Assembly (NCBI RefSeq): GCF_002750855.1
Contig: NZ_NWUC01000001.1
Location: 186,001-250,000 of the forward strand
Direction of reading: 5' to 3'
Source of the DNA: Neopararhizobium haloflavum
Lineage (GTDB): Bacteria > Pseudomonadota > Alphaproteobacteria > Rhizobiales > Rhizobiaceae
Length of the DNA: 64,000 nucleotides
Positions within the stretch are counted from its first letter, which is position 1. Every line of letters begins with the position of its first letter. Made by a program: the position numbers and the translations under genes. This document shows positions 15,722-51,812 of this stretch, piece by piece. Under the pieces are notes generated by a model that saw only the letters and a program-made list of their open reading frames with translations, did no database searches and was not told where the DNA came from.

Positions 15722-15843
15722 GGTCTCGATCCGGCTTGGCGATCGCGCCGTCGATAGCGGACGCTTGAGCGCAATTGCGGTGACAATCGGCCATCGGTGT
15801 GCGATCAGGCAATAACCCGAATGGAAGAGGCGAGGATATCCCC

Positions 15844-31874: not shown

Positions 31875-32250
31875 ATGCATCTCCTCCCTGATTTTGATTT
31901 GCGAACCCTGCCAAAGGGTCGCCCGGATTGGCACGGCTGCCCAGTTTTCCCGTCACTTGCGAGAAAGCAAGGCGTTTCCTCTCACGCCAACACTCTATCC
32001 AAGCCCCTTTTCGCAATCAAGCATTATAATGCATATCAATGCGTCAGCTGTTTGAATTGAATTAAAATATTGATTTTGTTATTTTATTGTTCCCTGTTGA
32101 TGATTGTGTTTCTCGAATTCGTCGAAAGAATTTAGGCATTATGTTGCAACATTGGCCGGCCGGGGGCATAGTGCGCCCCGGCTCGCGGCGGTCGTTGCAG
32201 CAGGAGAACGTCCACCGCCACCACGACACCGTTCAAGGGAGGAACATGCG
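31875..32250. promoter_or_regulatory. Divergent control region between aromatic importer and benzoate-CoA ligase
   Basis: This 376-base gap holds no gene I can support. The part at about 32044-32110 is clearly AT-rich (runs such as TTGAATTGAATTAAAATATT). Both divergent transcripts must start here. I could not assign confident -35/-10 pairs on either strand. Overlapping BoxR-like sites are at 32020-32043. Confidence 0.7.
32020..32043. promoter_or_regulatory. BoxR-like operator pair (AGCA-N6-TGCA overlapping TGCA-N6-TGCG)
   Basis: AGCATTATAATGCA (32020-32033) contains the palindrome GCATTATAATGC with TATAAT at its core, and overlaps TGCATATCAATGCG (32030-32043). TGCA-containing repeats are the known recognition element of the BzdR/BoxR family. 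It sits between the importer and ligase genes and could control both. Confidence 0.6.
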
Positions 32251-36753: not shown

Positions 36754-36791
36754 CTATGAGATGGTCAACGCATTCAGAGGAGGGCATTCAA

Positions 36792-38450
36792 GTGTCCAAA
36801 CGCATCGATTTTCAGGTCGACCCGGAAAACTACCGTCACTGGCGCGTCGACTATGAGGGCGACGTCGCGAAGCTTTACATGGACGTCGACGAGAAGGGTG
36901 GTCTGTTCGATGGATATGAACTGAAGCTCAACTCTTACGATCTCGGCGTGGATATCGAACTCTCGGATATCGTGCAGCGCATGCGCTTCGAGCATCCGGA
37001 AGTGAAGGCAATCGTCCTTCAGTCCGGCAAGGAACGTGTTTTCTGCGCCGGTGCGAACATCCGGATGCTTGGCGGAGCTGCGCACTCCCACAAGGTGAAC
37101 TTCTGCAAGTTCACGAATGAGACGCGCAACACGTTCGAAGCTGCCGGACAGGAGTCCGGCCAGCACTACATCTGCGCGGTCAGGGGTGCCTGCGCCGGTG
37201 GGGGCTACGAACTGGCGCTTGCTTGCGACCACATCATCCTGGCCGATGACGGCTCGTCCAATGTGGCGCTGCCGGAAGTGCCGCTTCTGGCGGTGTTGCC
37301 GGGAACGGGCGGCCTGACGCGCGTCACCGACAAGCGCAAGGTTCGCCGGGACCGGGCCGATGTCTTCTGCTCGATCGAAGAGGGCGTGAAGGGCAAGCGC
37401 GCGGCGGAATGGAACCTCGTCGATGAAGTCGTCGCCAATTCCAGGTTCGATGAAACGATTGCCGAACGTGCAAAGGAATTTGCCGCGCGGTCAACGCGGG
37501 CGGCGGCGAGCGAGGGCGTCAAGCTGACGCCGCTCAAGCGCACCTTCAACGACAACGGCGTCACTTACTCCACGATCGAGGTCGATATCGAGCGCGAGAA
37601 GGGCCTGGTCACGATCACCATCAAGGGACCGGACGGCGATGCGCCGGCCTCGATCGATGCGATCGCGGCCGAAGGCGCGGATGCCTGGATCCTGCGTGCG
37701 GCCCGTGAACTCGATGATGCGATCCTGCATCTGCGTTTGAACGAACTGGAACTCGGCACCTGGGTCATCCGCAGCCAGGGCGATCCAGCAGCGGTCCTTG
37801 CCCATGAAAAGGTTGTCACCGACAATGCCGATCATTGGCTGGCGAACGAAATCCTGCTCTACTGGAAGCGTGTGCTGAAGCGCCTCGACGTCACGTCCCG
37901 GTCGCTTGTCGCGCTGGTCGAGCCGGGCTCCTGCTTTGCCGGCGTCCTGGCCGAAGTTCTCTTTGCGGTCGACCGTTCCTATATGGCCGAAGGGGATTTC
38001 GAAGGCGACAACCGGCATGTCGCGGCGATCACGCTCAGCGACAACAATTTCGGCCGGTTCCCAATGGCGAACGACCTCACGCGTCTGCAGACCCGCTTTC
38101 TCGGAGAGCCGGGGAAGGTGGACGAAGCCAAGGGCCGTATCGGCGAAACACTGGAAGCATACGATGCCAACGAACTCGGCCTCGTGACCTATTGCTTCGA
38201 CGATATCGACTGGGAAGACGAAGTTCGCATCTTCCTGGAAGAGCGCACCTCATTCTCTCCGGATGCGATGACCGGCATGGAAGCCAATCTGCGCTTCCCC
38301 GGCCCGGAGACAATGGAAACAAGAATTTTTGGACGGCTTACGGCTTGGCAGAACTGGATTTTCCAGAGGCCGAATGCCGTTGGCGAGAACGGAGCCCTGC
38401 AGCGCTACGGAACCGGTGTCCGCGGCGATTACGATATGCGCAGGGTGTGA
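36792..38450 (+). CDS. boxC: 2,3-epoxybenzoyl-CoA dihydrolase (BoxC), GTG start
   Basis: A 552-residue enzyme of the enoyl-CoA hydratase superfamily, double the usual length. It opens the ring of 2,3-epoxybenzoyl-CoA by adding two waters, releasing formate and 3,4-dehydroadipyl-CoA semialdehyde. N-terminal crotonase-like parts are KERVFCAGANIRML and CAVRGACAGGGYELALACDH, forming the oxyanion hole. GGAGGG precedes the GTG at 36792 by seven bases; the ATG at 36756 lies next to the operator and lacks a ribosome site, so GTG was chosen. It heads boxC-boxB-boxA. Confidence 0.93.
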   Translation: MSKRIDFQVDPENYRHWRVDYEGDVAKLYMDVDEKGGLFDGYELKLNSYDLGVDIELSDIVQRMRFEHPEVKAIVLQSGKERVFCAGANIRMLGGAAHSHKVNFCKFTNETRNTFEAAGQESGQHYICAVRGACAGGGYELALACDHIILADDGSSNVALPEVPLLAVLPGTGGLTRVTDKRKVRRDRADVFCSIEEGVKGKRAAEWNLVDEVVANSRFDETIAERAKEFAARSTRAAASEGVKLTPLKRTFNDNGVTYSTIEVDIEREKGLVTITIKGPDGDAPASIDAIAAEGADAWILRAARELDDAILHLRLNELELGTWVIRSQGDPAAVLAHEKVVTDNADHWLANEILLYWKRVLKRLDVTSRSLVALVEPGSCFAGVLAEVLFAVDRSYMAEGDFEGDNRHVAAITLSDNNFGRFPMANDLTRLQTRFLGEPGKVDEAKGRIGETLEAYDANELGLVTYCFDDIDWEDEVRIFLEERTSFSPDAMTGMEANLRFPGPETMETRIFGRLTAWQNWIFQRPNAVGENGALQRYGTGVRGDYDMRRV

Positions 38451-38466
38451 CTGCTGACTGGTAAGT

Positions 38467-38580
38467 AGTGAATAGCGAACGGGTGAGAGCGAATTAGGTG
38501 CGTCTGTGACGCGCTCGTGAGTTGGCGAAGACGTGAAGAACAATTTCTTCAAAGCGCGCTTCACCGTTCACTATTCATCA
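38467..38580. repeat. Imperfect long inverted repeat with inner hairpins between boxC and boxB
   Basis: Arms AGTGAATAGCGAACGGGTGA (38467-38486) and its near complement TTCACCGTTCACTATTCATC (38560-38579) match with one mismatch and one indel. Inside lie GCGTC-TGT-GACGC (38500-38512) and GAAGAA-CAAT-TTCTTC (38535-38550). The whole could fold in RNA or be a dispersed repeat element. It ends 26 bases before boxB. Confidence 0.6.
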
Positions 38581-38605
38581 TTCACCCCAGAAACGGGAGA
38601 TATCA

Positions 38606-40057
38606 ATGCTTGATCTCATCAACGTCGCCTACGATACGCAGATTCCCAACAATGTCGGTCTGTCTTCCGACAAACGCGTCCTCAAGGCGCTGGAAAAGTG
38701 GCATCCAGGCTATATCAACTGGTGGAACGACCTGGGTCCGGACGGCTTTCAGGAAAGCCTCGTCTACCTGCGCACAGCCGTATCGGTCGATCCGAAGGGC
38801 TGGGCGAAGTTCGACTACGTGAAGATGCCAGAATACCGCTGGGGCATCCTGCTTGCGCCGCAGGCCGAGGGCCGGACCATTCCGTGCGGCGAGCACGTCG
38901 GTCAACCGGCCTGGCAGGAAGTGCCGGGCGAATACCGCAACATGCTCAAGCGCCTGATCGTCATCCAGGGCGATACGGAGCCGGCATCGGTCGAGCAGCA
39001 GCGCCATCTCGGGAAGACCGCGCCATCGCTTTACGACATGCGCAACCTGTTCCAGGTCAACGTCGAGGAAGGCCGGCACCTTTGGGCGATGGTCTATCTT
39101 CTGCAGAAGTATTTCGGTGCCGACGGGCGCGAGGAAGCGGACGACCTGCTTCGCCGCACCTCCGGCTCGGAAGAAGCGCCGCGCATGCTCGGTGCCTTCA
39201 ACGAGGCAACGCCGGATTGGCTGTCCTTCTTCATGTTCACCTACTTCACCGACCGTGACGGCAAGATGCAGCTGGAATCGCTCGCGCAGTCGGGCTTCGA
39301 TCCGCTGTCGCGCACCTGCCGCTTCATGCTGACGGAAGAGGCGCACCACATGTTCGTCGGGGAGACCGGCGTCGGCCGCGTCATCCAGGCGACATGCGAG
39401 GCGATGAAGGAAGCCGGCATCGATGATCCCTACGACATCGAGAAGGTGCGCGCGCTCGGCGTCATCGACCTGCCGACGATCCAGAAGAAGCTCAACCTGC
39501 ACTATTCGCTGTCGCTCGATCTGTTTGGCTCGGAAGTCTCGACAAATGCCGCGAATGCCTTCAATGCAGGCATCAAGGGCCGGTATCAGGAAGCCAAGAT
39601 CGACGACGATCACCAGCTTCACAGCGATACCTACCCGGTCATCCAGCTCAAGGACGGCAAGATCGTCTGGGAAGACGTGCCGGCTCTGTCGGCGATCAAC
39701 ATGCGTCTTCGTGACGACTATGTCCGCGACGCGTCGGGTGGCGTGAAGCGCTGGAACGCGACGATCGAAAAGACTGGCGTCCAGTTCGAGATGAAGATGC
39801 CGCACCAGGGCTTCTATCGTCACATTGGCGTCTTCGCGGACGCCAACGTCGATCCCGACGGTGCGATCATCTCCAAGGAAGAGTGGGATGCGAAGAAGGA
39901 CGAGTGGCTGCCGACCAAGGCCGATGGCGATTTCATTCAGTCGCTGATGAAGCCTGTCTGGGAGCCCGGCAAGTTCGCCAGCTGGATCGCACCGCCGCGC
40001 GTCGGCATCGACAACAAGCCGGGCGACTTCGAATACGTCAAACTTCACATGGCTTGA
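38606..40057 (+). CDS. boxB: Benzoyl-CoA 2,3-epoxidase oxygenase subunit (BoxB)
   Basis: A 483-residue diiron oxygenase that inserts one oxygen atom into benzoyl-CoA to give the 2,3-epoxide. Candidate iron ligands are in VEEGRHLWAM and LTEEAHHMFVGE, the typical E-x2-H pair arrangement. GGGAG lies seven bases before the ATG at 38606. It works with the BoxA reductase encoded downstream. The sequence is highly conserved in style and full length. Confidence 0.95.
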   Translation: MLDLINVAYDTQIPNNVGLSSDKRVLKALEKWHPGYINWWNDLGPDGFQESLVYLRTAVSVDPKGWAKFDYVKMPEYRWGILLAPQAEGRTIPCGEHVGQPAWQEVPGEYRNMLKRLIVIQGDTEPASVEQQRHLGKTAPSLYDMRNLFQVNVEEGRHLWAMVYLLQKYFGADGREEADDLLRRTSGSEEAPRMLGAFNEATPDWLSFFMFTYFTDRDGKMQLESLAQSGFDPLSRTCRFMLTEEAHHMFVGETGVGRVIQATCEAMKEAGIDDPYDIEKVRALGVIDLPTIQKKLNLHYSLSLDLFGSEVSTNAANAFNAGIKGRYQEAKIDDDHQLHSDTYPVIQLKDGKIVWEDVPALSAINMRLRDDYVRDASGGVKRWNATIEKTGVQFEMKMPHQGFYRHIGVFADANVDPDGAIISKEEWDAKKDEWLPTKADGDFIQSLMKPVWEPGKFASWIAPPRVGIDNKPGDFEYVKLHMA

Positions 40058-40068
40058 GACATTGCGCT

Positions 40069-40103
40069 CCGCCGTCATTCTCTCTTGTTTTGAGGGTGAC
40101 GGC
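40069..40103. terminator. Strong hairpin between boxB and boxA
   Basis: CCGCCGTCA (40069-40077) pairs perfectly with TGACGGCGG (40095-40103) across a 17-base loop. No T-run follows. It begins 12 bases after the boxB stop and may stabilise the boxB message or reduce boxA expression. I saw no gene in the 189-base gap to boxA. Confidence 0.5.
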
Positions 40104-40246
40104 GGGGGCGCGGGTTTCGATTTCTGCAAATGGTCGGGACGTGCCCGATCATGACGGCGGCGAAAGAGTTTCGGCCGCTCTTACCCAGAGTGCCAGGCGC
40201 ATAGCCGTCTTGCGCCAAATGCCCAATATGGCGAGGGTCCTGTCCC

Positions 40247-41449
40247 ATGAACGCACCGCTGAAACAGCATCTGATCGATCCGGAAATCTGCATCCGCTGC
40301 TATACGTGCGAGGAGGCATGCCCCGTCGATGCGATCACGCATAACGAGGACAATGTGGTCGTCGATGCGTCTAAATGTGATTTCTGCATGAGTTGCATCG
40401 CGCCGTGCCCCACCGGATCGATCGACAATTGGCGCGTCGTTCTCGAGCCCTATTCGCTCGAGGAGCAGATGGAGTGGATGGAGCTTCCCGAACAGGCGGA
40501 GATCGCAAAGCCGGAAGGCAGCGACCAGGACGGCGGCGACATTGAAGCGCTGGAAGATTCCGTCGAACGGCTTCTGGCCGAAGCCCATGCAGGCGCCGGA
40601 GGCAAGGCCAAGGCGCCGGCGACAGCAACAAAGCCGTCGATCAACCTCTACAATCTCAAGAAGCCCGCAACGGCGACCGTGCAGGGCAACTACCGACTGA
40701 CTAGCGAGGGCGCCGACAGCGATGTGCGCCATATCATTCTCGATCTCGGCAATCAGCATTTCCCTGTGCTGGAAGGCCAGAGCGTCGGTATCCAGCCGCC
40801 TGGAACAGATGAGAACGGCAACCCGTATCTGCCGCGTCTCTATTCCATATCGAGCCCGCGCGACGGCGAACGGCCGAACACCAACAACCTTTCGCTCACG
40901 GTCAAACGGGAGGAGCATGGTGTCTGCTCCAACTACGTCTGCGATCTGAAGAAGGGCGACGAGGTCAAGCTGACGGGACCGTTTGGCGCAACGTTCCTGA
41001 TGCCGAACGATCCGCAGGCCAACATCGTGATGATCTGCACCGGAACGGGCTCGGCGCCGTTCCGCGCCTTCACGATGCGTCGCCAGCGCACGGCCGGAGA
41101 AGGGGGCGCGATGATGCGGCTCTTCTTCGGGGCGCGTACCTCGGACGCTCTTCCGTATTTCGGTCCGCTGAAGAAGGTGCCGGACACGGTGCTGGAAAAG
41201 CATCTCGTGTTCTCGCGTGCCGAAGCCGTGGAAAAGGAATATGTGCAGGACCGGATGCTGAAGCAGAAGGCCTCGCTTGCCGAACTCATCCGGGCCGACG
41301 ACACGCATGTCTACGTCTGTGGCCTGAAGGCGATGGAAGAGGGCGTCGAGGCGGCGTTTCAGGCGATTGCCGATGAAGCGGGCAGCGACTGGCATGCCAT
41401 CCGCGACGCGATGCGCGAGAGCGGCCGCTATCATGTCGAGACCTACTGA
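40247..41449 (+). CDS. boxA: Benzoyl-CoA 2,3-epoxidase reductase subunit (BoxA)
   Basis: A 400-residue NADPH-dependent reductase that feeds electrons to BoxB. Two ferredoxin-like 4Fe-4S motifs are near the N-terminus (CIRCYTCEEACP and CDFCMSCIAPCP). An acidic/Ala linker at about residues 85-130 follows, then a FAD/NAD module with RLYSISSP, GVCSNYVCD and MICTGTGSAPFRAF. AGGG precedes the ATG at 40247. Its gene order after boxB and its domain layout are those of known BoxA. Confidence 0.94.
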   Translation: MNAPLKQHLIDPEICIRCYTCEEACPVDAITHNEDNVVVDASKCDFCMSCIAPCPTGSIDNWRVVLEPYSLEEQMEWMELPEQAEIAKPEGSDQDGGDIEALEDSVERLLAEAHAGAGGKAKAPATATKPSINLYNLKKPATATVQGNYRLTSEGADSDVRHIILDLGNQHFPVLEGQSVGIQPPGTDENGNPYLPRLYSISSPRDGERPNTNNLSLTVKREEHGVCSNYVCDLKKGDEVKLTGPFGATFLMPNDPQANIVMICTGTGSAPFRAFTMRRQRTAGEGGAMMRLFFGARTSDALPYFGPLKKVPDTVLEKHLVFSRAEAVEKEYVQDRMLKQKASLAELIRADDTHVYVCGLKAMEEGVEAAFQAIADEAGSDWHAIRDAMRESGRYHVETY

Positions 41450-41451
41450 GG

Positions 41452-41883
41452 ATGGCCGAATCCGGGGACAGGTTCGTCCATGACATCACCGTGCGCTGGT
41501 CCGACTGCGATCCCGCGAATATCGCCTATACCGGCCGGATACCGAATTTCGCGCTGGAAGCGATCGACGCATGGTGGGCGGCAAAGATCGGAATTGACTG
41601 GTTCGAGCTTAACCTCGACCGCAACACCGGAACGCCGTTCGTCAAGCTGTCGATGGAATTCCTTTCGCCGATCACCCCGCGGCACACATTGCGCTGCACG
41701 GTGCGGCTGACCAAACTCGGGCGGACGGCGATGACCTTCGCCGTCGATGGTCATCAGGACGGTAAGGCATCATTTGCCGGGGAGTTTGTCTGCGTGGCCG
41801 TTCAGGCCGATCGCTTCAAGGCAACGCCGCTGCCCGAGGACATGCGGCTTACCATGGAGAGCCTGGTCGATGCTGAAGGGTAA
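41452..41883 (+). CDS. 4-hydroxybenzoyl-CoA thioesterase-family protein in the box cluster
   Basis: A 143-residue hotdog-fold thioesterase. The family segment is VRWSDCDPANIAYTGRIPNF, where the aspartate of CDPAN is the presumed catalytic acid. It starts two bases after the boxA stop and is surely cotranscribed. A benzoyl-CoA thioesterase would release CoA when the pathway stalls; that protective role is known for box clusters and is inferred here. Confidence 0.85.
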   Translation: MAESGDRFVHDITVRWSDCDPANIAYTGRIPNFALEAIDAWWAAKIGIDWFELNLDRNTGTPFVKLSMEFLSPITPRHTLRCTVRLTKLGRTAMTFAVDGHQDGKASFAGEFVCVAVQADRFKATPLPEDMRLTMESLVDAEG

Positions 41884-41908
41884 TCGTCGCGGCTGATATT
41901 GCGTGTGA

Positions 41909-41922
41909 TGCAATATAATGCA
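41909..41922. promoter_or_regulatory. BoxR-like operator with TATAAT core before boxR
   Basis: TGCAATATAATGCA follows the TGCA-N6-TGCA pattern and has TATAAT at 41914-41919. It lies 47 bases before the chosen boxR start, consistent with autoregulation. A looser repeat of TGCA units (41934 and 41950) follows. Confidence 0.65.
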
Positions 41923-41968
41923 TAATTGACGCGTGCATTCAGATTCGCATGCAGTATGGTTCGTGTCA

Positions 41969-42889
41969 ATGGACGAGATCGTTACTTTCGGCGGGACGGT
42001 TACATCGCTGGAGCGGGCACGCTCCGTAGAAGACGAATCGACACGATTCCTCGAAATGGTCGGCGAGCGGGTGCGGGCCGCGCGCTCGCGCAAGAACATC
42101 TCTCGCAAGGTGCTCTCGGAAATGTCGGGCGTGTCGCAGCGCTATCTCGCCCAACTCGAGAGCGGCACCGGCAACATCTCCATCATCCTCCTGCGGCGTG
42201 TCGCCGACGCGCTCGACCACCGGATCGAATGGCTGGTGGGCGAGGAAGACCCCTATACGTCCGAAGTGCATTCGGTCACCTCGCTCTACCGACAGGCGAC
42301 GAGCGAGCAGCGCATGCGCGTTCTGGAGATACTGGATCCGGAAAATCCCAATCTGCGACGTTCGGGACGCATCGCGTTCATCGGGCTGCGCGGGGCAGGA
42401 AAATCGACGATCGGACGACTCGTTGCCGATCAGCGGCACATGCCGTTTCTCGAACTCAACGAGGAGATCGAGCAAGCCAGCGGCATGCCGGTCAATGAGG
42501 TCATCGCTCTTTACGGCCAGGAGGGCTATCGCCGGTTGGAGCGGCAATCGGTCGAGCGGATCGCTGCGACCTATGATTCGATCGTCCTTGCCGTTGCCGG
42601 AGGCATCGTCTCGGAGCCGGAAACCTTCAATTATCTCTTGCGGCACTATCACACGATCTGGCTGAAGGCGCGGCCGGAAGAGCACATGGGAAGAGTGAGA
42701 GCGCAAGGGGACGAACGTCCCATGGCCGGCAACCCGGCGGCGATGGAAGAACTGCGCAACATCCTGATGAGCCGCGAAGCGCTCTATGCGCGGGCCGAGG
42801 CCGAAATCAACACCAGCGGCAAGGGTGTGCCGGAAACCCTGGCCGCCGTCTCCGAGATTGTCGACAAGCGCGGTTTCCTAAAGAACTGA
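41969..42889 (+). CDS. boxR: Benzoyl-CoA-responsive transcriptional repressor BoxR
   Basis: A 306-residue regulator with an XRE-type helix-turn-helix in the first 90 residues (SRKVLSEMSGVSQRYLAQLE) and a shikimate-kinase-like C-terminal domain starting at GLRGAGKSTIGRL. This architecture defines BzdR/BoxR, whose effector is benzoyl-CoA. The frame opens with a GTG at 41933, but that would be almost leaderless; the ATG at 41969 precedes the conserved part. Neither has a good ribosome site. It is transcribed with or after boxA and probably controls all TGCA-type sites listed here. Confidence 0.93.
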   Translation: MDEIVTFGGTVTSLERARSVEDESTRFLEMVGERVRAARSRKNISRKVLSEMSGVSQRYLAQLESGTGNISIILLRRVADALDHRIEWLVGEEDPYTSEVHSVTSLYRQATSEQRMRVLEILDPENPNLRRSGRIAFIGLRGAGKSTIGRLVADQRHMPFLELNEEIEQASGMPVNEVIALYGQEGYRRLERQSVERIAATYDSIVLAVAGGIVSEPETFNYLLRHYHTIWLKARPEEHMGRVRAQGDERPMAGNPAAMEELRNILMSREALYARAEAEINTSGKGVPETLAAVSEIVDKRGFLKN

Positions 42890-43705
42890 TCACCGCCCCC
42901 TGAAGGTGGCTTGCCGCTTTTCGAGGAAAGCCAGAACGCCCTCGCGATAGTCGCTCGTCTTGCCGGCAAGGCCTTGCAGACGCGCTTCTTCAGCCAGATA
43001 AGTTTCGAAATCGCTGGTATGCGCTGCCTGCACTGCCTTCTTGATCGCGCCATAGGCAGCGGTCGGTCCCTCGGCGAGGGCAGTGGTCAATGCATCGATC
43101 TCGTCGGTCAGATTGGCGCTTGGAACGGATTTGAAGGCGAGGCCCGCCTCGACCGCCTCTCGGCCGGTCAGCGTCCCGCCGGTAAGCATCAGGCCGCGTG
43201 CCCGTGCCGGTCCCAGCGCCTGCACAAGGGCAAAACCGGCGCCGGCATCGACCGAAAGCCCGACCTTGGCAAAGGAGAGGATGAAGCGTGCATCGTCAGC
43301 GGCCAGGATGATGTCGGCCGCCAGGGCGATGGCTGCGCCAGCGCCTGCCGCGACACCAGAGACGGCAACCACCACCGGTTTTTCCATCTCGCGCATCAAG
43401 CGCACGACCGGATGAAAGAGGCGCGTCTGAATGGCTTCCAGATCGAATGGTTCAGCATGCTTGCGCGGATCTCGATCGGCCAGATCCTGCCCCGCGCAAA
43501 ATGCCTTGCCGGCGCCGGTAAGGAGTACTGCGCGCACTGTCTGGTCTTGTTGCGCGGCCTTGAGGGCATCTGCCAGTTGGATCAGCAGGGCCTCGGTCAA
43601 GGCGTTCAGCTTCTGAGGTCTGTTCAGCGTGATTGCGGTGAGGGCGCCGCGCTGTTCCACAAGGATTGGTGGCGCTGTTTCGGGTGTATCGCTAAACGTC
43701 GTCAT
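42890..43705 (-). CDS. Enoyl-CoA hydratase/isomerase (PaaG-like)
   Basis: A 271-residue crotonase-fold enzyme. Oxyanion-hole segments are GAGKAFCAGQDL and VAAGAGAAIALAADI. The GQDL and KVGLSVDAGAG features resemble PaaG-type isomerases of the phenylacetate pathway. It could isomerise or hydrate the dehydroadipyl-CoA products of BoxD. Its stop directly abuts the boxR stop on the other strand, and its promoter is shared with the divergent fused dehydrogenase gene. Confidence 0.85.
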   Translation of the reverse strand: MTTFSDTPETAPPILVEQRGALTAITLNRPQKLNALTEALLIQLADALKAAQQDQTVRAVLLTGAGKAFCAGQDLADRDPRKHAEPFDLEAIQTRLFHPVVRLMREMEKPVVVAVSGVAAGAGAAIALAADIILAADDARFILSFAKVGLSVDAGAGFALVQALGPARARGLMLTGGTLTGREAVEAGLAFKSVPSANLTDEIDALTTALAEGPTAAYGAIKKAVQAAHTSDFETYLAEEARLQGLAGKTSDYREGVLAFLEKRQATFRGR

Positions 43706-43741
43706 AAAGCGCCGCGTTTCCTCGTCAAAGTGGTGTTATTG

Positions 43742-43764
43742 TGCACATGATGCACTATAACGCA
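43742..43764. promoter_or_regulatory. BoxR-like operator pair in divergent hydratase/dehydrogenase promoter
   Basis: TGCACATGATGCA (43742-43754, TGCA-N5-TGCA) overlaps TGCACTATAACGCA (43751-43764), whose core TATAAC resembles a -10 box. The site lies 29 bases before the fused dehydrogenase start and 37 bases before the divergent hydratase start, so one repressor could control both. Confidence 0.6.
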
Positions 43765-43792
43765 CCAAACACAAGCAGTGGAGGTGCCACCA

Positions 43793-45862
43793 ATGGCCGT
43801 TCAAATCACCCGCAAAGGCGATGTCGCAATCGTCAGCATCGACAATCCGCCGGTCAATGCCATTGGACATGCAGTGCGAGCCGGGTTGCTGGAAGCGGTC
43901 GAAACGCTTTCGGCTGATGGGACGCTGAAGGCGGTGGTGCTGACCGGAGCAGGAAAGATATTCGCTGCCGGCGCCGATGCGCGCGAGTTCGATACGCCGC
44001 CCGAGTCGCCGCACCTTCCTGACGTGGCTCTTGCCATCGAGACGGCGCCCCAGCCCTGGATCGCAGCAATCAACGGCGCTGCGCTCGGCGGAGGATGTGA
44101 GCTTGCGCTCGCCTGCCGCATGCGCATCGCCGGCACGAACGCGACGATCGGACTTCCCGAAGTGACGCTTGGCGTCGTGCCCGGAGCCGGCGGCACACAG
44201 CGCCTTCCGCGGCTTGTCGGATTGAAGAGCGCGCTCGATATCATTCCTCAAGGCAAGGTGTTGAAGGCGGATGCGGCGAAGGCCGTCGGTTTGATCGACC
44301 GTATCGCCGACGATCCCGTTGCCGAGGCAATGGCTCTCGTTGATGGCGGCAAACTCGGTTTCGGTGCGCGTCTGTCCGAGCGCGCTGCGGTCGAAGCAGA
44401 CGCGACAGCGGTCCTTGATGCGCGCAGCCGGGCCGCAAAGCGCATGCGCGGCCAGATCGCGCCGGAGCGCGCGATCGACCTTCTGGAGCGCGCGACACAG
44501 GAGGATTTCGATCGCGGGATGGCGCAGGAGCGCGAAACCTTCCTTGAATTGCGGCAAGGTGAGCAGGCCAAGGCCCTGCGCCATATCTTCTTTGCCGAAC
44601 GTGGCGCTAAGAAGCCCGATTCGATCGCGGCAGAGCCCGTGCCAGTGGACACCGTCGTCGTGATTGGCGGCGGGACGATGGGGGCTGGTATCGCTTATGC
44701 GCTGGAACGCGCAGGCTATACTGTCACGCTGGTCGAAACCGACGAGGGCGCGCGCGAGCGGGCCGAGGCCAATGTGGGGCGATTGTTCAAGGATGCGGTC
44801 AAGCGCGGATTGATGGCGCAGGAAGAGGCGGACGAACGACAGGCGCGCATCACGCTCGTCGTAGGCTATGACGATCTGCCGCCGGCCGGCCTCGCCATCG
44901 AAGCTGCCTTCGAGAGCATCGAGGTCAAGCGCGAGATATTCGGCAAGCTCGACGAAGCTTTGCCGAAGCACGCGATCCTGGCGACCAATACCTCGTATCT
45001 CGACGTCAACGAGATCGCGGCGTCGACATCGCGGCCTGAGCGCGTTCTCGGCCTGCATTTTTTCTCGCCGGCGCACATCATGAAATTGCTGGAGATCGTA
45101 CGGGCCGACAAAACCTCTCACGAGGCGCTGGCGACGGGCTTTGCGGTGGGTGCCAAGCTGAAGAAGATCCCGGTGCTCGCCGGCGTTTGTGATGGTTTCA
45201 TCGGCAATCGGATACTGTTCCGCTATCGCGAGGAAGCCGATGTCTTGATGATGGACGGTTCTCTGCCCTGGCTCATCGACGAGGCGATGGTGGAGTTTGG
45301 CATGGCGATGGGGCCATACGAGGTGCAGGATCTCTCCGGTCTCGATATTTCCTATGCGCAGCGCAAGCGCCGGGCTCCGACGCGCGATCCGAACCGCCGC
45401 TACATACCCATCGCCGACCGTATGGTTGAAGAGGGGCGCATCGGCAAGAAGGCCAGTGTTGGCTGGTATCGCTATCCGGGCGGCGGCGGCGCCGTCGTCG
45501 ATCCCCTGCTGGAGGATTTGATCACCGAGGAAGCGCATTTCGCCAAGGTCACACGCCGCGAAATCTCTCCTGACGAAATTCGGGAGAGGCTGACATTGGC
45601 GATGATCAACGAGGCCGCCGACATTCTCAACGACGGGATCGCGCAGAAGGCGTCTGATATCGATCTCGTGATGGTCCACGGCTACGGATTTCCGCGTTGG
45701 CGCGGCGGACCGATGCACTATGCCGACACGATCGGGGCAGCCGCGATACTCGACAAGATCCGCGCATTCGAGCGCGACGACCCGGTGATGTGGCGGCCAA
45801 GCCCACTGATCGTGAACCTCGCCGCCAGTGGCGGACGCTTCGCAAATGCCGGACAAGTTTGA
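43793..45862 (+). CDS. Fused enoyl-CoA hydratase / 3-hydroxyacyl-CoA dehydrogenase (FadJ/FadB-like)
   Basis: A 689-residue beta-oxidation enzyme. The N-terminal hydratase half has [15 protein letters not shown] and [14 protein letters not shown], and the dehydrogenase half begins at [16 protein letters not shown] near residue 287, with the NAD-dependent part followed by the HCD C-terminal domain ([16 protein letters not shown]). GGAGG lies just before the ATG at 43793. It should convert 2,3-dehydroadipyl-CoA to 3-oxoadipyl-CoA downstream of the box reactions. The thiolase that would complete the path is not in the window. Confidence 0.92.
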
Positions 45863-45971: not shown

Positions 45972-46670
45972 TCAGATGTCCAGCAGATGCCGGGCGTCCT
46001 GATTGTAAAGCGTGGGGTTGTTGCCGGCGTTGTGTTCGCCCTTGTTCTGCCGATCCTTCATCAGATCGATCGCCTTGCGCACGGCGGGCCGGTTCTTGAT
46101 CGTCTCGCGCCAGCGTTGGACCTGCGGGAACGGATCGAGGGAGACGTCGAGGTTTTTGGCGATGAAGGCCCATGGAAACGAGAGCATGTCGGCGACGGAG
46201 TATTCGCCGAGAATGAAATCGCGATCGCGCAGGCGCCACTCCAGTACGGCGAGCGTGCGCTCATATTCGCCGCGATAGCGCGTGAGCGCGTAGTCCTGCC
46301 CGTCCTTCGGCCCGTACATGCGGAAATGCGATAGCTGACCCGCCATCGGACCCTGGTTGCCGGTCTGCCAGAACAGCCACTCCATCGCTTCCTTCCGGCC
46401 CAAGGGGTCGGAAGGCATGAAGCGGCCTGTCTTGTCGGCCAGATACCACAGGATCGCGCCGGACTCGAAGACCGGCACGGGATCGCCGGCAACGTCATGA
46501 TCCACGATCGCCGGCATCTTCGCATTCGGGTTGATGGCAAGAAACTGCGGTGTGAATTGTGCGCCGTGGAAGATGTCGAGGAAGTGCGCGGTATAGGGCA
46601 GCCCGCATTCCTCGAGCATGATGGAGACTTTCCAGCCGTTCGGGGTGGGCGCGTAGTAAAGGTCGATCAT
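45972..46670 (-). CDS. Glutathione S-transferase-like protein, possible maleylpyruvate isomerase
   Basis: A 232-residue GST with the thioredoxin-like N-domain (IDLYYAPTPNGWKVSIMLEE) and glutathione-site segment MPAIVDHD plus FESGAILWYLAD. It resembles YfcG/YghU-like GSTs more than classical zeta-class isomerases. As the last gene after gentisate dioxygenase, a glutathione-dependent maleylpyruvate isomerase role is plausible but unproven. The ATG at 46670 has a GAGA ribosome site; a start at 46697 overlapping the upstream gene is possible. Confidence 0.8.
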   Translation of the reverse strand: MIDLYYAPTPNGWKVSIMLEECGLPYTAHFLDIFHGAQFTPQFLAINPNAKMPAIVDHDVAGDPVPVFESGAILWYLADKTGRFMPSDPLGRKEAMEWLFWQTGNQGPMAGQLSHFRMYGPKDGQDYALTRYRGEYERTLAVLEWRLRDRDFILGEYSVADMLSFPWAFIAKNLDVSLDPFPQVQRWRETIKNRPAVRKAIDLMKDRQNKGEHNAGNNPTLYNQDARHLLDI

Positions 46671-46683
46671 CGATATCTCGTTT

Positions 46684-47724
46684 TCAGGCGTTGCCACGCG
46701 CTTCGCGCCAGAGGCCGAGCTTTTCCTGCACGGCGCGATCCGAATAGGAAAACAGCACGGATTCCTCTGCCGGTTCGTGGACCACCGGCTTCCAGGAAGG
46801 CGCGACGAAGATGTCCTGCGGTCCCCATTCGATCACGCTGTCACCGATCCGGCTCTTACCCTTTCCTTCGACGCAGACGAACACGGTGGCGTCGGTCGAA
46901 CGGTAGGGCGTGGTGCCGCCTTTCGGCAGGAGCTGGATGAAGGTCGCGATGGTCGGCATGGCGAAGCCGCCGTCGAGCGGGTTGGTATAGCGCAGCTTGT
47001 AGCCGTGGCACGGATCCGGGTCGCCGCCCTTTTTCATGGCATCCAGCGTGGCACGGCTCTTTTCATACGGATAGTTGAAGATCGGCGAGACATGGCCGCC
47101 GCGCGGCGCGTCGACCGGCATCAGATTGTGGCCGAACTCGTTGTAGGATTGGCCGGTCTGACGTGTGATCTTCTGCGCATCATCGTCCATGCCCTCGGCG
47201 AAAGAGGCGTCGAGAAAGGATACCAGGGGGATGTCGAGACCATCGAGCCAGAACATGGGCTTGTCGGTCTCATTGCCGTGGTCGTGCCAGGCCATCTGCG
47301 GCGTGATGACGAAGTCGCCATAGTTCATCACCGTCTTCTCGCCGTTTACCGCCGTGTGTGCGCCGGAGCCTTCGAGCACGAAGCGCAGCGCTGATTGTGT
47401 GTGGCGATGGGCCGGCGCAACCTCGCCGGGGAGCACGAGCTGGACTCCCGCATAAAGCGACGTGGTGACCTTCGATTCCCCGCGAAGTCCCGGATTTTCT
47501 AGGATCAGGACGCGGCGCTCGGCTTCCTTCGCGGTGATCAGACCGCCGGCCTCCATCATCGCGTCCCGGATTTCGGCGAACCTCCATCCAACTGCCTGGC
47601 ACTTCGACTTCGGTTCCGGCGTGACGAGCGCACCGAGCACGGTCCAGAGCGGCGTCATGTTCTGCTTGTCGATCTTGTCGTAGAAGGCGCGTCTTTCGGG
47701 TGTGTCCTGCGGAGCCTGATGCAT
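46684..47724 (-). CDS. Gentisate 1,2-dioxygenase
   Basis: A 346-residue bicupin ring-cleavage dioxygenase. Iron ligands are expected in APAHRHTQSALRFVLEG and in the later HDHGNET histidines, the pattern of gentisate and salicylate 1,2-dioxygenases. It would cleave gentisate to maleylpyruvate with oxygen and ferrous iron. The hydroxylase and ligase genes upstream favour gentisate over direct salicylate cleavage, though related enzymes accept both. It starts 15 bases after the ligase stop. Confidence 0.92.
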   Translation of the reverse strand: MHQAPQDTPERRAFYDKIDKQNMTPLWTVLGALVTPEPKSKCQAVGWRFAEIRDAMMEAGGLITAKEAERRVLILENPGLRGESKVTTSLYAGVQLVLPGEVAPAHRHTQSALRFVLEGSGAHTAVNGEKTVMNYGDFVITPQMAWHDHGNETDKPMFWLDGLDIPLVSFLDASFAEGMDDDAQKITRQTGQSYNEFGHNLMPVDAPRGGHVSPIFNYPYEKSRATLDAMKKGGDPDPCHGYKLRYTNPLDGGFAMPTIATFIQLLPKGGTTPYRSTDATVFVCVEGKGKSRIGDSVIEWGPQDIFVAPSWKPVVHEPAEESVLFSYSDRAVQEKLGLWREARGNA

Positions 47725-47739
47725 GGCGGGCGTCCTTGT

Positions 47740-49362
47740 TCAGCGTTTCGATAGGGCCTGGCGGTCGAGCTTCCCGGTGCCGGTTTTCGGCAATTCGTCG
47801 AGATAGTCGACCAATCGAGGATATTTGTAGGGCAGAAGCTTGCGTTTGACGAAATCCTGCAGCGCCTTGGTTTCGTCCGCATCCGGATTGAAACCCTCGC
47901 GCAACCTGACAAACGCACGCAGCGTCATGCGCTTGTCCTCCATCTGGTGGGCGAGCACGGCACATTCGTGAACATGAGGATGCTCGGCCAGGCAGCGTTC
48001 GACCTCGAGCGGCCACACCCACTGGCCGGATACCTTGATGAGGTCGTCGGCGCGGCCTTGAAAGAAGTAGAACCCGTCGCGCTCGACAAAGCGGTCTCCC
48101 GTGTAAAGCCAATCGCCGCGCATCGTCTCGGCGGTCTTGTCCGGGCGGTTCCAGTAAAGCGGCGCGGAAGAGTGCCCGCGCACCCACATGACGCCTTCCT
48201 CGCCGGCTGAAATTTCCTTGCCGTCATTGTCGCGCAGGACGATCTCGTAGCCTGGAACGCGCCGGCCGGCCGAGCCCAGCCGCTTGTCCGATCGCGTGTT
48301 GGAAACATAGATGTGCAGAACCTCCGTGGAGCCCAGGCCCTCCATGATCTCAAGGCCGGTCAGGCTTTTCCACTGGCCGAAGATTTCCTCCGACAGAGTT
48401 TCTGCCGCGGAGACCGAAAGCCGGATGGAGGAAAGGTCGCGGGTCTTGGCGGCGGGATCGCGGCAAAGGGCGGTGTAGAGGGTCGGCAGGCCGAAAAAGA
48501 CCGTCGGTCGGAACCGTTCCACGGTTTCAAGGATCCGGTCCGGCTCCGGCCGTCCTGGCATCAGCAGGCTGGTGGCGCCGGCAGCGAACGGAAACGTGAT
48601 GCCGTTGCCGAAGCCGTAGGCGAAGAAGAGCTTCGGCACCGAAAAACAGACATCGTCCTGCGACAGGTCCAGCAGGTGCCGGGCATAGGACTGCACCGTA
48701 TAGGCCATGTCGTGCTGTAGATGTACGATCCCTTTCGGGCGGCCCGTCGACCCGGATGAATACATCCAGAAGCACATGTCGTCCGGGCCGGTGTCGGCGC
48801 AATCCAGCGTGTCCGGCATGTCATCGGTGAAGTCCGATGCCAGGATGAACGGTGCCTTGCCCGCTGAAACCTCGCCATTGGCGATGACCACCTTTTCAAG
48901 TGCCGTGCCATTCATCGCTTCGCCGCTGAATACGGCCGCGAGATCGTGATCGCAGACTGCGACGCGCGCTCCGGTGTCGGCCAGGAAGAAGTTCAGCAGA
49001 TCGGGTGTGGTCAGCGTGTTGAGGAGGACGGGCACGAAGCCGGCCCGCACCGCCCCGAAAAAGGCCGCGACGAAGGCCGGTGTATCGTCGAGAAAGAAGG
49101 CGATGCGGTCGCCTCGCTTCAGTCCCTCGGCGGCAAAGGCGTTGCCCCAGCGCGCGGCCTCGGCACACAACGCGCGATAGGTGCGCTCGCCTGCCGGCCC
49201 GGTTACCGCGAGCTTGTCGGGATTACGGGCGAGATTGTCGAACAGTATCGCACTCGCATTGGAGTGCGCGGCCTTGTCGAAGCCGATTTCGGCGGCGCCT
49301 GCGGTTTCGCCGACATGGTCGATGATCCTTGCGTCCGATGCTTCGGGCAGGTCCGCCGTCAT
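47740..49362 (-). CDS. Aryl-CoA ligase (benzoate-CoA ligase family), probably for a hydroxybenzoate
   Basis: A 540-residue AMP-forming ligase with MYSSGSTGRPKG and the C-terminal lysine region PKTGTGKLDRQALSK. It is a divergent relative of the benzoate-CoA ligase at 32251 and retains VPKLFFAYGFGNGITFPF near the substrate pocket. Its operon partners (aryl-CoA hydroxylase, gentisate dioxygenase) indicate salicylate or 3-hydroxybenzoate as substrate. The ATG overlaps the hydroxylase stop by four bases. Confidence 0.88.
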   Translation of the reverse strand: MTADLPEASDARIIDHVGETAGAAEIGFDKAAHSNASAILFDNLARNPDKLAVTGPAGERTYRALCAEAARWGNAFAAEGLKRGDRIAFFLDDTPAFVAAFFGAVRAGFVPVLLNTLTTPDLLNFFLADTGARVAVCDHDLAAVFSGEAMNGTALEKVVIANGEVSAGKAPFILASDFTDDMPDTLDCADTGPDDMCFWMYSSGSTGRPKGIVHLQHDMAYTVQSYARHLLDLSQDDVCFSVPKLFFAYGFGNGITFPFAAGATSLLMPGRPEPDRILETVERFRPTVFFGLPTLYTALCRDPAAKTRDLSSIRLSVSAAETLSEEIFGQWKSLTGLEIMEGLGSTEVLHIYVSNTRSDKRLGSAGRRVPGYEIVLRDNDGKEISAGEEGVMWVRGHSSAPLYWNRPDKTAETMRGDWLYTGDRFVERDGFYFFQGRADDLIKVSGQWVWPLEVERCLAEHPHVHECAVLAHQMEDKRMTLRAFVRLREGFNPDADETKALQDFVKRKLLPYKYPRLVDYLDELPKTGTGKLDRQALSKR

Positions 49363-50501
49363 GTCGCGCTCCGCAGCTTGTGTGTTTCGTAGGCGGCCAT
49401 GAAATCCGGCGCCAGCCCGCGCAGCCGGTCCATGTCGACGCGTCCTGACCGGGTGATGTAATCGAAGCCGAAATCAAGCGGCTCGAGGCTCATCTTTTCC
49501 GGGAAATGATCGTACCAGAGCGCGGAGGTGTTCGCGGCATCAACGATCTTCCGGGCGATCGGCATACGGTCACGCGCGAAAGCCGCAAGCGCTGCGGCAA
49601 GGTCCTGACTGTCCCGAAGCGCACGGGCAAGGGCGATCGCATCTTCCATCGCAAGGCGCGTGCCCGAGCCTATGGAGAAATGCGCCGTGTGCGCCGCGTC
49701 TCCGAGAATGACCCTGTTGCCTGCGACCCAACCGCTGCACCAGAGCTTGGGAAACCGGCGCCATGCGGATTTGTTGGTGATCAGTGGTGCGCCCTCAAGT
49801 GCGTCGGCGAAGATTTCCTCGCAGATGCGCGCCGACGCGTCCTCGTCCATGGCATCGAAACCATATGCATCGTAGGTCGCGGCGTCGCATTCCACGATGA
49901 AGGTGCTCTTGCCCGGTGCGTAGCGATAGTGATGGGCGTTGAACGTGCCCTTGCCGGTTTCGACGAAGGTCTGCGTCAGCGTGTCGAATGCGCGGTTCGT
50001 GCCGAACCAGGCGAACCGGTTCTGGAAGTGATCGAGCGCGGGGGAAAAGGCGTCTTCCTGCGTGCGGCGGACGAGCGAGTTGAGCCCATCGGCGCCGATG
50101 ACGAGATCGGCGCCCATTGACGCGAGGTCAGCGACCGGCTTGCTGAAGCGCAGTTCCACGCCGGTATCGGCCGCCCGCTTCTGCAGAAGCTGGAGCAGTT
50201 GCAGGCGTCCGATCGCGGCAAAGCCTATGCCGTCGATCGTCACGCGCTCGCCCTTGAGAACGAGCGTCATGTTGCGCCAGCGCTCCATATGCGGCGTTAT
50301 GAGATCATGGGTGGCCGGGTCGTCCGCCTTGAGGAAGTCGAGTGCCTGATCGGAAAAGACAACGCCGAAACCAAAGGTCGCATCGAGCGGATTTTGCTCA
50401 TGCACCGTGACACGCGCCGAAGGCATGGCGCTCTTGATCAGCGTTGCGGCGTAGAGGCCCGCCGGCCCACCGCCAATCACGTCCACCGCCGAAAGATTCA
50501 C
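49359..50501 (-). CDS. FAD-dependent aryl-CoA monooxygenase (salicylyl-CoA 5-hydroxylase type), GTG start
   Basis: A 380-residue flavoprotein. The FAD motif is VIGGGPAGLYAATL at the N-terminus, followed by TFGFGVVFSDQALDFL, which is typical of salicylyl-CoA 5-hydroxylase and the N-terminal part of 2-aminobenzoyl-CoA monooxygenase/reductase. GDAAHTAHFSIGSGTRLAMED is the second flavin motif. It lacks the fused flavin-reductase-like domain of the longer relatives. GGAGG lies seven bases before the GTG at 50501; a TTG is next to it. It would hydroxylate an aryl-CoA para to the ring hydroxyl, giving gentisyl-CoA. Confidence 0.85.
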   Translation of the reverse strand: MNLSAVDVIGGGPAGLYAATLIKSAMPSARVTVHEQNPLDATFGFGVVFSDQALDFLKADDPATHDLITPHMERWRNMTLVLKGERVTIDGIGFAAIGRLQLLQLLQKRAADTGVELRFSKPVADLASMGADLVIGADGLNSLVRRTQEDAFSPALDHFQNRFAWFGTNRAFDTLTQTFVETGKGTFNAHHYRYAPGKSTFIVECDAATYDAYGFDAMDEDASARICEEIFADALEGAPLITNKSAWRRFPKLWCSGWVAGNRVILGDAAHTAHFSIGSGTRLAMEDAIALARALRDSQDLAAALAAFARDRMPIARKIVDAANTSALWYDHFPEKMSLEPLDFGFDYITRSGRVDMDRLRGLAPDFMAAYETHKLRSAT

Positions 50502-50596
50502 CAAATCCCTCCTCCCTAGACCGGCCATCAAGCTTGACAGAAAGCGTAACGAACGTTTGCATATGATGCAAACATTTTTACCCAAAGGAAAAATGA
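50502..50596. promoter_or_regulatory. Divergent promoter region with 19-base palindrome
   Basis: GTTTGCAT-ATG-ATGCAAAC (50555-50573) is a perfect eight-base inverted repeat with a three-base spacer. It contains TGCA-N5-TGCA, the same layout as the BoxR-like sites. It lies between the aryl-CoA hydroxylase operon and the thioesterase-IclR unit. It may be the IclR operator, a BoxR site, or both. Confidence 0.6.
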
Positions 50597-51019
50597 ATGA
50601 ACGATTCCCTATTCGAGCATGTCGTGCCGGTGAGCTTCGGCCATTGCGATCCTGCCGGAATCGTCTTCTATCCCAACTTCTTTCGCTGGTTCGATGCAGG
50701 ATTTCATGCCTTCCTCGCCCATCGTAGCTGCCCGCAATCGGTTCTGGCCGAGAAGCTCGGGACGATCGGTCCGGGGCTGATCGATGTCGGCGCCACCTTT
50801 CGTTCGCCGGTCACGCATGGCGACGAACTGCGTCTTTCCGTGCAGGTGGAAGCGTGGCGCACGCGCAGTTTTCGCGTCGCCTATCGCGGCATGGTGGGGC
50901 AAAGGTTGGCGCTGGAAGGCTTCGAAGTGCGCGGGCTCTTCATGCGCGAGGATGATCGCCTCGTTGCCGCTCCGGTCGCGCCGTTGAGGGCGATGGTCGA
51001 GGGAGGTGCGAATGGCTGA
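50597..51019 (+). CDS. 4-hydroxybenzoyl-CoA thioesterase-family protein, possible gentisyl-CoA thioesterase
   Basis: A 140-residue hotdog thioesterase with FGHCDPAGIVFYPNFFRWF, where the aspartate of CDPAG is the catalytic residue in this family. AAGGA lies before the ATG at 50597. It is divergent from the hydroxylase gene and shares its control region, so release of gentisate from gentisyl-CoA is the natural role; this is inferred. Its last bases overlap the regulator start. Confidence 0.85.
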   Translation: MNDSLFEHVVPVSFGHCDPAGIVFYPNFFRWFDAGFHAFLAHRSCPQSVLAEKLGTIGPGLIDVGATFRSPVTHGDELRLSVQVEAWRTRSFRVAYRGMVGQRLALEGFEVRGLFMREDDRLVAAPVAPLRAMVEGGANG

Positions 51020-51812
51020 CGACATACCCCGGCAAGCCGAGGCGCAGGGCGGAATCCAGTCGCTCGACGCCGCATTGCGTGTATTGATGGCGATGGCGAA
51101 CATGGAAGGTGCGGTGGGGGTCTCCGATCTTGCCCGTGCGTGTGGCATGCCGGTCAGCAAGACGCATCGGTATCTTGCCTCGTTCATTCATGCCGGGCTC
51201 GTCTGTCAGGCCGGGCGATCGGGGCGCTACGATCTCGGGCCGCGCGCCATCGAGATCGGACTGGCCGCGCTGAGCAGGCATGATTTCGTCAACGCCGCGT
51301 CGGACGATCTGCATCGGTTGACAGTAGAGACCGGGCTGACAGCGCTCCTTTGCGTCTGGGGCAATTCCGGACCCACCGTCGTGCGCTGGGAGCGTGCGGC
51401 ATCGTTCATTGCCACCTCGCTCGGTCTCGGGACGACCCTGCCGCTTTTGACCTCCGCGACCGGCCGGATATGCCTAGCCTATCTGCCGGGCGCGGTCACG
51501 GGGGCGCTTCTGGACGAAGAACTGGCGCGCGGACTGGCCAGCCCGCAGATTTTCCACGATCTGGAATTAAACCAGGCTGACGTCGCGCGGTTGGCGGCGG
51601 ACGTGCGCGATCAAGGATATGCCACGGTGGATGGCCGGTTCATTCCCGGTCTCGTGGCCCTCGCAGCGCCGATCCTCGATTGGCAAGGTGAGGCGCAGGC
51701 CGTGGTGACGCTGATCGGGGCCGATCCGCGCCTGATCGAACCGGGTGCCGCGCAGATCGGCTCGTTGAAGGAATTCTGCGCCAGCCATTCGATCGTCTCG
51801 GTCAGCCGTTGA
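51012..51812 (+). CDS. IclR-family transcriptional regulator
   Basis: A 266-residue regulator. The winged helix-turn-helix is at about residues 14-60 (GVSDLARACGMPVSKTHRYL) and the IclR ligand-binding domain follows, with LGLGTTLPLLTSATGRICLA. GGAGG lies five bases before the ATG at 51012, within the end of the thioesterase gene. IclR proteins often sense aromatic acids; it most likely controls the divergent gentisate-forming genes. Confidence 0.9.
   Translation: MADDIPRQAEAQGGIQSLDAALRVLMAMANMEGAVGVSDLARACGMPVSKTHRYLASFIHAGLVCQAGRSGRYDLGPRAIEIGLAALSRHDFVNAASDDLHRLTVETGLTALLCVWGNSGPTVVRWERAASFIATSLGLGTTLPLLTSATGRICLAYLPGAVTGALLDEELARGLASPQIFHDLELNQADVARLAADVRDQGYATVDGRFIPGLVALAAPILDWQGEAQAVVTLIGADPRLIEPGAAQIGSLKEFCASHSIVSVSR

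Follow-up and report, generated by a model that had tools for sequence, protein, structure and literature searches.

Which aromatic acid is broken down by a small divergent gene cluster in Neopararhizobium haloflavum, a member of the Rhizobiaceae, and is the route that it encodes a new one? The cluster occupies positions 45972 to 51812 of a 64,000-nucleotide stretch of DNA (the window) on contig C10; the assembled genome comprises 4.17 Mb in 36 contigs (completeness 100). From 51812 downward, it consists of genes for an IclR-family regulator and a thioesterase on the plus strand, followed by divergently oriented genes for a hydroxylase, a ligase, a gentisate dioxygenase and a glutathione S-transferase (GST) on the minus strand. 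A sequence-only reading of this DNA had named five of these genes (the ligase, a stand-alone flavin adenine dinucleotide (FAD) hydroxylase, a hotdog thioesterase, the gentisate dioxygenase and the GST), and profile scores confirmed all five in their assigned places; the IclR gene also belongs to the unit. The sequence evidence described below makes it very probable that the cluster is a CehGHI-type, coenzyme A (CoA)-dependent unit for the catabolism of salicylate. Its features are as follows.

51006..51812, plus strand: IclR-family regulator (IclR domains; overlaps the thioesterase gene)
50597..51019, plus strand: hotdog thioesterase, CehI-like, predicted gentisyl-CoA thioesterase (Pfam 4HBT_2 and 4HBT over cut-off)
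50555..50573, no strand: perfect inverted repeat GTTTGCAT-ATG-ATGCAAAC between the divergent starts, putative IclR operator
49359..50501, minus strand: stand-alone FAD hydroxylase, CehH-like, predicted salicylyl-CoA 5-hydroxylase (motifs, identity, tree)
47740..49362, minus strand: aryl-CoA ligase, CehG-like, predicted salicylyl-CoA ligase (TIGR02262, 501 against a cut-off of 375.25)
46684..47724, minus strand: gentisate 1,2-dioxygenase (TIGR02272, 551.6 bits against a cut-off of 442.1)
45972..46697, minus strand: GST, YfcG/Ure2p-type disulfide-bond oxidoreductase-like (PRK13972 the best NCBIfam match, 185.1 bits, cut-off 332)

Kinship with ceh-type clusters

The same divergent core is present on two plasmids, Agrobacterium tumefaciens Sta004 pAt1 (locus L034) and Salipiger abyssi pPABY2 (locus L035). 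On pAt1, RefSeq annotates an IclR regulator, cehI (gentisyl-CoA thioesterase), cehH (salicylyl-CoA hydroxylase) and cehG (salicylyl-CoA ligase); on pPABY2, cehH and cehG are named and the thioesterase and IclR genes are not. We take the ceh names to be linked to strain X9 of Rhizobium sp. The window hydroxylase is 62% identical to the cehH-named proteins (60% using the longer open reading frame), and the ligase is 65% identical to the cehG-named proteins of both loci. Identity of the thioesterase is 49% to the cehI-named protein of L034 and 51% to the unnamed one of L035, and the IclR protein is 56–57% identical to the IclR gene product adjoining the thioesterase in both (56% to L034), giving a range of 49–65% for the four proteins against L034. 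As in a CehGHI-type cluster, the thioesterase gene of the window adjoins the IclR gene and diverges from the hydroxylase and ligase genes, and the hydroxylase and ligase are orthologous to CehH and CehG. In Variovorax (L042) and Pseudosulfitobacter (L043), the ligase adjoining the stand-alone hydroxylase was only 25–28% identical to that of the window.

In a tree of 130 hydroxylase rows, the window protein, three rows from the same genus and both cehH-named rows fell into one 29-row clade with an SH-aLRT value of 99, and the nearest named row was that of Nitratireductor alexandrii. The tree was built by a quick method without bootstrap from rows that included no authentic PhgB, omitting 12 short copies (L005–L016) of loci refetched at greater length and two identical rows (L163, L164); the open reading frame set used for identities omitted L001–L003, L135–L153 and L166–L168.

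The sequence-only reading had considered a rhizobial version of this route to be little described, a view that does not hold, as orthologues are already named cehG, cehH and cehI in RefSeq and relatives of the cluster were found in Rhizobium, Agrobacterium, Sinorhizobium, Bradyrhizobium and Rhodobacterales. A tblastn search against plasmids returned 180 records, the best 22 rows of which were from Sinorhizobium, Rhizobium, Nitratireductor and Agrobacterium. Of 101 genomes sampled from the order, 61 belonged to the family of the window, and 9 of these (its own included) contained a stand-alone or ligase-fused homologue. In 2021, a report appeared of a CoA-mediated route for salicylate in Rhizobium sp. 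X9 (Zhou et al., as cited in the available part of PMC11335346), and the role of this strain in carbaryl degradation is noted in the part of PMC8292978 consulted. The cluster is genuine, coherent and of an already known kind.

The hydroxylase carries the motifs GGGP, GADG and GDA at residues 10, 136 and 267. Its start is most likely the GTG at 50501, giving 380 amino acids, and not the first TTG of the open reading frame at 50585, because both the homologues and the strong ribosome-binding sequence GGGAGGAGGGATTTG, which precedes this GTG, place the start there. The predicted thioesterase matched 4HBT_2 with E=1.3e-8, and its Asp18, invariant in all seven aligned sequences, aligns with Asp17 of 4-hydroxybenzoyl-CoA thioesterase (1bvq); the gentisyl-CoA thioesterase BH1999 and its Asp16 are treated in the available part of PMC516016. 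For the gentisate dioxygenase, the single match in the genome and thus the only copy found, the closest solved sequence was 2d40 (395 bits), and the next scored 221.9 bits or less, with the 2phd/4fag group at 206–211. We take this group to include the salicylate-cleaving Pseudaminobacter enzyme. Direct cleavage of the salicylate ring by the window dioxygenase was set aside, as 2d40 is the closest solved relative by a wide margin.

The proposed chemistry (activation with CoA, hydroxylation at the CoA-ester stage, a thioesterase and a gentisate dioxygenase) remained the best reading of the sequence. The ligase would convert salicylate to salicylyl-CoA, which a single-component flavoprotein would hydroxylate at C5 with NAD(P)H and O2 to give gentisyl-CoA. 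The hotdog thioesterase would then release gentisate, and the dioxygenase would open the ring to yield maleylpyruvate.

Hydroxylase architecture and the divergent promoter

The reductase-like half of the bifunctional enzyme PRK08255 is truly absent from the window hydroxylase, as the sequence-only reading had proposed: the profile was matched only over its N-terminal half (positions 3–383 of 768) at 395.9 bits, whereas membership takes both halves and more than 1078 bits. A second, full-length PRK08255 homologue (1289.7 bits) is accompanied on contig C30 by genes for a ligase, an acyl-CoA dehydrogenase and an enoyl-CoA hydratase, and its N-terminal hydroxylase half is homologous to the window protein at 43% identity. 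The general models label the window proteins “benzoate-CoA ligase family” and “bifunctional salicylyl-CoA hydroxylase”, yet they most likely form a salicylate-specific unit that is distinct from this reductase-fused paralogue.

The two architectures were compared by their neighboring genes. Among 15 reductase-fused loci (that of the same genome and 14 relatives hand-chosen from a longer list; at least 13.7 kb each), a gentisate dioxygenase gene was found in none, a thioesterase gene in 1, an acyl-CoA dehydrogenase gene in 12 and an enoyl-CoA hydratase gene in 11. The corresponding counts were 15, 18, 1 and 0 for the 26 CehH-clade loci of at least 11 kb, and 43, 36, 4 and 5 for 92 stand-alone or ligase-fused loci. 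In a second reductase-fused set (n = 4; at least 11 kb), an acyl-CoA dehydrogenase gene was present in two. One natural interpretation is that dearomatisation by the reductase half, a role that we presume for it, prepares the ring for a beta-oxidation-like breakdown, and that the product of the stand-alone enzyme stays aromatic and goes to a dioxygenase that cleaves the ring.

The perfect inverted repeat at 50555–50573 is proposed as a candidate operator, through which the IclR protein would control both divergent transcripts. Its core, TTGCATNNNATGCAA, has a single occurrence in the window (shuffle mean 0.00), and the entire 4.17 Mb genome likewise has only one such place, where, as a palindrome, it reads on both strands; control matches numbered 0. 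Upstream sequences of the hydroxylase gene were compared in 34 chosen loci, which contained two duplicate pairs and omitted the clade members L037, L054, L108 and L109. The exact core was present in seven (the window, three loci of the same genus, L117, L120 and L157), and 22 of the 34 matched it at 10 or more of the 12 positions, all within 38–62 bases before the start. Two points weigh against the proposal. The cehH-named loci L034 and L035 match the core at only 9 and 8 of 12 positions, values that 15 and 64, respectively, of 200 shuffles equalled, and the pattern was first read from the window, so that the same-genus matches are not independent.

Substrate and the remainder of the pathway

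Enzymes for the other hydroxybenzoate isomers are encoded elsewhere in the genome. PobA was found over its cut-off (662.9 against 538.7), so that 4-hydroxybenzoate can go to protocatechuate, and a 3-hydroxybenzoate 6-monooxygenase (562.5 against 459; locus L144, 9782–11667, contig C32) adjoins a MaiA gene (253.8 against 171). At the thresholds given and in this one assembly, no salicylate 1-monooxygenase (TIGR03219) exceeded its cut-off (best 112.5 against 446) and no Rieske alpha subunit of PF00848 was found. We take the Rieske-type salicylate 5-hydroxylase to be a member of this last family. Because neither enzyme was detected, the window cluster is the only salicylate route found. Since PobA and the 3-hydroxybenzoate 6-monooxygenase cover the other isomers and no other salicylate enzyme was detected, salicylate is the likely substrate of the cluster. 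Thus, of the two substrates offered by the sequence-only reading, salicylate was supported, and 3-hydroxybenzoate, with its own dedicated monooxygenase, was not. The cluster should nevertheless serve 3-hydroxybenzoate too, after hydroxylation of the free acid, because the only gentisate dioxygenase found is there; the C32 monooxygenase route, by which 3-hydroxybenzoate would enter at gentisate, would depend on it.

The cluster was also said to hold no fumarylpyruvate hydrolase, and this proved correct as a local absence. The conversion of maleylpyruvate to fumarate and pyruvate would proceed via the MaiA on C32 and an FAH-family hydrolase on C20, which are 61% and 56% identical, respectively, to those of the L034 cluster; the C20 gene adjoins ABC-transporter genes. 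The single FAH-family gene in the window (15799–16686) was rejected as a fumarylpyruvate hydrolase: its product shares 37–38% identity with the FAH proteins encoded at the ceh-type loci L034 and L036, and it matched the 2,4-didehydro-3-deoxy-L-rhamnonate hydrolase model best (417.6, cut-off 500). The GST was dropped as first choice for the maleylpyruvate isomerase, though it stays a less likely candidate, as it scored only 49.7 with TIGR01262 (maiA; cut-off 171) and so is not of the MaiA type of other ceh-type clusters. Its closest solved relatives are 4l8e (214.4 bits) and YfcG 5hfk (189.1 bits).

Gene order and fold do not separate the salicylate route from a PhgABC-type one, in which hydroxylation of 4-hydroxybenzoyl-CoA, accompanied by a move of the thioester group (an NIH shift), yields gentisyl-CoA and then gentisate. 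The phgABC system employs the same three activities, a ligase, a hydroxylase and a thioesterase, and likewise ends in gentisate, but its substrate is 4-hydroxybenzoate and the carboxyl group migrates (available part of PMC7862547); the part of PMC10815724 consulted deals with the formation of gentisate from 4-hydroxybenzoate by Bacillus spp. and Haloarcula. We assign this alternative a low probability, because the genome's PobA serves 4-hydroxybenzoate and because the ligase and hydroxylase are so similar (62–65%) to proteins that RefSeq names for salicylyl-CoA. A PhgB anchor from Bacillota was sought, and none of the best 80 loci of the genome-contig scan was from that phylum. The phgABC organism studied by Zhao et al. 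in 2018 is reportedly Brevibacillus laterosporus.

Another ortho-substituted benzoate, such as anthranilate or a halogenated or alkylated salicylate, would fit the fact that the second-best solved relative of the ligase is an anthranilate-CoA ligase (4wv3, 367.6 bits). However, benzoate-CoA ligase 2v7b scored higher (380.9 bits), a 2,5-dihydroxy product is suggested by the gentisate dioxygenase gene, which follows downstream in the same orientation, and an aminobenzoyl-CoA route would be suited by the separate full-length PRK08255 locus, a role that we assume for it; we therefore consider such a substrate quite improbable. The 3-hydroxybenzoate-CoA ligase HbdA was the second NCBIfam match of the window ligase (378 bits), which would suit 6-hydroxylation of 3-hydroxybenzoyl-CoA to gentisyl-CoA. 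This score is far below the cut-off of 1000, though, and is about equalled by a benzoate-CoA ligase family protein at 32104–33807 (359.7); with the free-acid monooxygenase adjoining MaiA, 3-hydroxybenzoate is unlikely as a substrate of the CoA route, and we give this alternative hardly any weight.

Several points weigh against salicylate catabolism by a ceh-type unit. The window gentisate dioxygenase is only 35–36% identical to that of ceh-type clusters, with 36% for L034, the GST differs from theirs in type, and the ceh names in RefSeq were presumably transferred by similarity. Eleven of the 26 CehH-clade loci have no gentisate dioxygenase gene within the stretch, and one of the four loci of the second reductase-fused set (L040) does have one. 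Finally, the elimination of substrates assumes a single route per isomer.

Relatives, neighboring genes and known systems

Beyond the catabolic assignment, the remaining interest of the locus lies in the single palindrome and in natural fusions among its relatives. In 14 intact loci (L036, L047, L054, L095, L097, L100, L104, L106, L110, L113, L132, L157, L158 and L159), the hydroxylase and ligase are encoded in one frame of 909–943 codons from stop to stop; 13 of these belong to the 29-row clade and L106 lies outside it; L047 is from Sinorhizobium sojae. Annotation agrees in two cases, with proteins of 916 amino acids in Nitratireductor OM-1 and 909 amino acids in R. leguminosarum Vaf10. By a strict test for the exact strings of six motifs, nine of the 14 fusions contain all six and five are without one or two, and the fused state requires at least five changes on the tree. 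In L037 (Rhizobium ruizarguesonis pRlX1), the fused gene is disrupted and IS66-type genes lie close by. Literature searches on the pathway, barely aimed at fusions, returned no paper on them, which is weak evidence of absence. We tentatively suggest that the ligase and hydroxylase of the clade may act as one channelling unit that passes salicylyl-CoA on directly, although we hold this to be somewhat doubtful; under this equally tentative view, the single chain of about 900 amino acids in the relatives could be a self-activating aryl-acid hydroxylase. The window, in which the hydroxylase and ligase genes share a 4-base overlap, perhaps keeps the same unit as two translationally coupled genes.

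Hydroxylase genes were also seen in other settings. In L050 (5016–7146; Rhizorhabdus wittichii RW1 pSWIT02), the stand-alone hydroxylase gene Swit_5101 directly follows the gentisate dioxygenase gene Swit_5102. In L042 (1–8741; a Variovorax boronicumulans plasmid), the stand-alone hydroxylase gene is accompanied by genes for a 3-hydroxyacyl-CoA dehydrogenase, an acyl-CoA dehydrogenase, an enoyl-CoA hydratase, a gentisate dioxygenase, an FAH protein and a thioesterase, a set that perhaps performs side-chain beta-oxidation of a 2-hydroxycinnamate-like acid to salicylyl-CoA. L043 (4297–12819) and L048 (4281–11623) combine ligase, hydroxylase and thioesterase genes with genes for a VOC protein, an Asp/Glu racemase-family protein and a TRAP transporter; no gentisate dioxygenase is annotated in the 13 kb shown, and this looks like a different pathway. 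The hydroxylases of L045, L046 and L053 (Actinomycetota plasmids; 524–536 amino acids) have a conserved C-terminal extension, and their genes adjoin acetate-CoA-ligase-family and AMP-binding genes, a cupin gene and an FAH gene. A hotdog domain in this extension was considered and rejected, as the aligned consensus, inspected by eye without profile comparison, has no recognisable hotdog motif.

Next to the cluster lies one further group of genes.

36756..45862, plus strand: neighboring benzoyl-CoA (box) genes, a separate unit

These genes are genuine, with scores over cut-off for BoxC (952.8 against 712.3), BoxB (914.9 against 499.1), BoxA (542.4 against 459.2) and a BoxR-type regulator (389.3 against 204). 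Besides boxC, boxB, boxA and the boxR-type gene, the unit contains a thioesterase-like gene, an enoyl-CoA hydratase gene (minus strand) and, at 43778, a gene for a fused enoyl-CoA hydratase/3-hydroxyacyl-CoA dehydrogenase. In all three same-genus genomes, the GST is kept at 81–82% identity and its gene adjoins that of the fused hydratase/dehydrogenase; the stretches fetched for this comparison ended before the box genes.

Salicylate is a plant defence compound (available part of PMC4600096), and therefore a route for its removal may matter to plant-associated bacteria. In Streptomyces sp. WA46 (Ishiyama et al. 2004, as described in that part of PMC4600096), with which the window was compared by description, the route includes a salicylyl-AMP ligase and probably a salicylyl-CoA synthetase; the sdgC route in Massilia is covered in the available part of PMC13215587. 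Closest to the window are the ceh clusters of L034 and L035, from which it differs in the 4-base overlap of the hydroxylase and ligase genes. Beyond the shared core, L034 continues with genes for FAH, MaiA, a cupin dioxygenase and a maleylpyruvate isomerase, whereas the window instead carries a TIGR02272-type dioxygenase and a YfcG-like GST.

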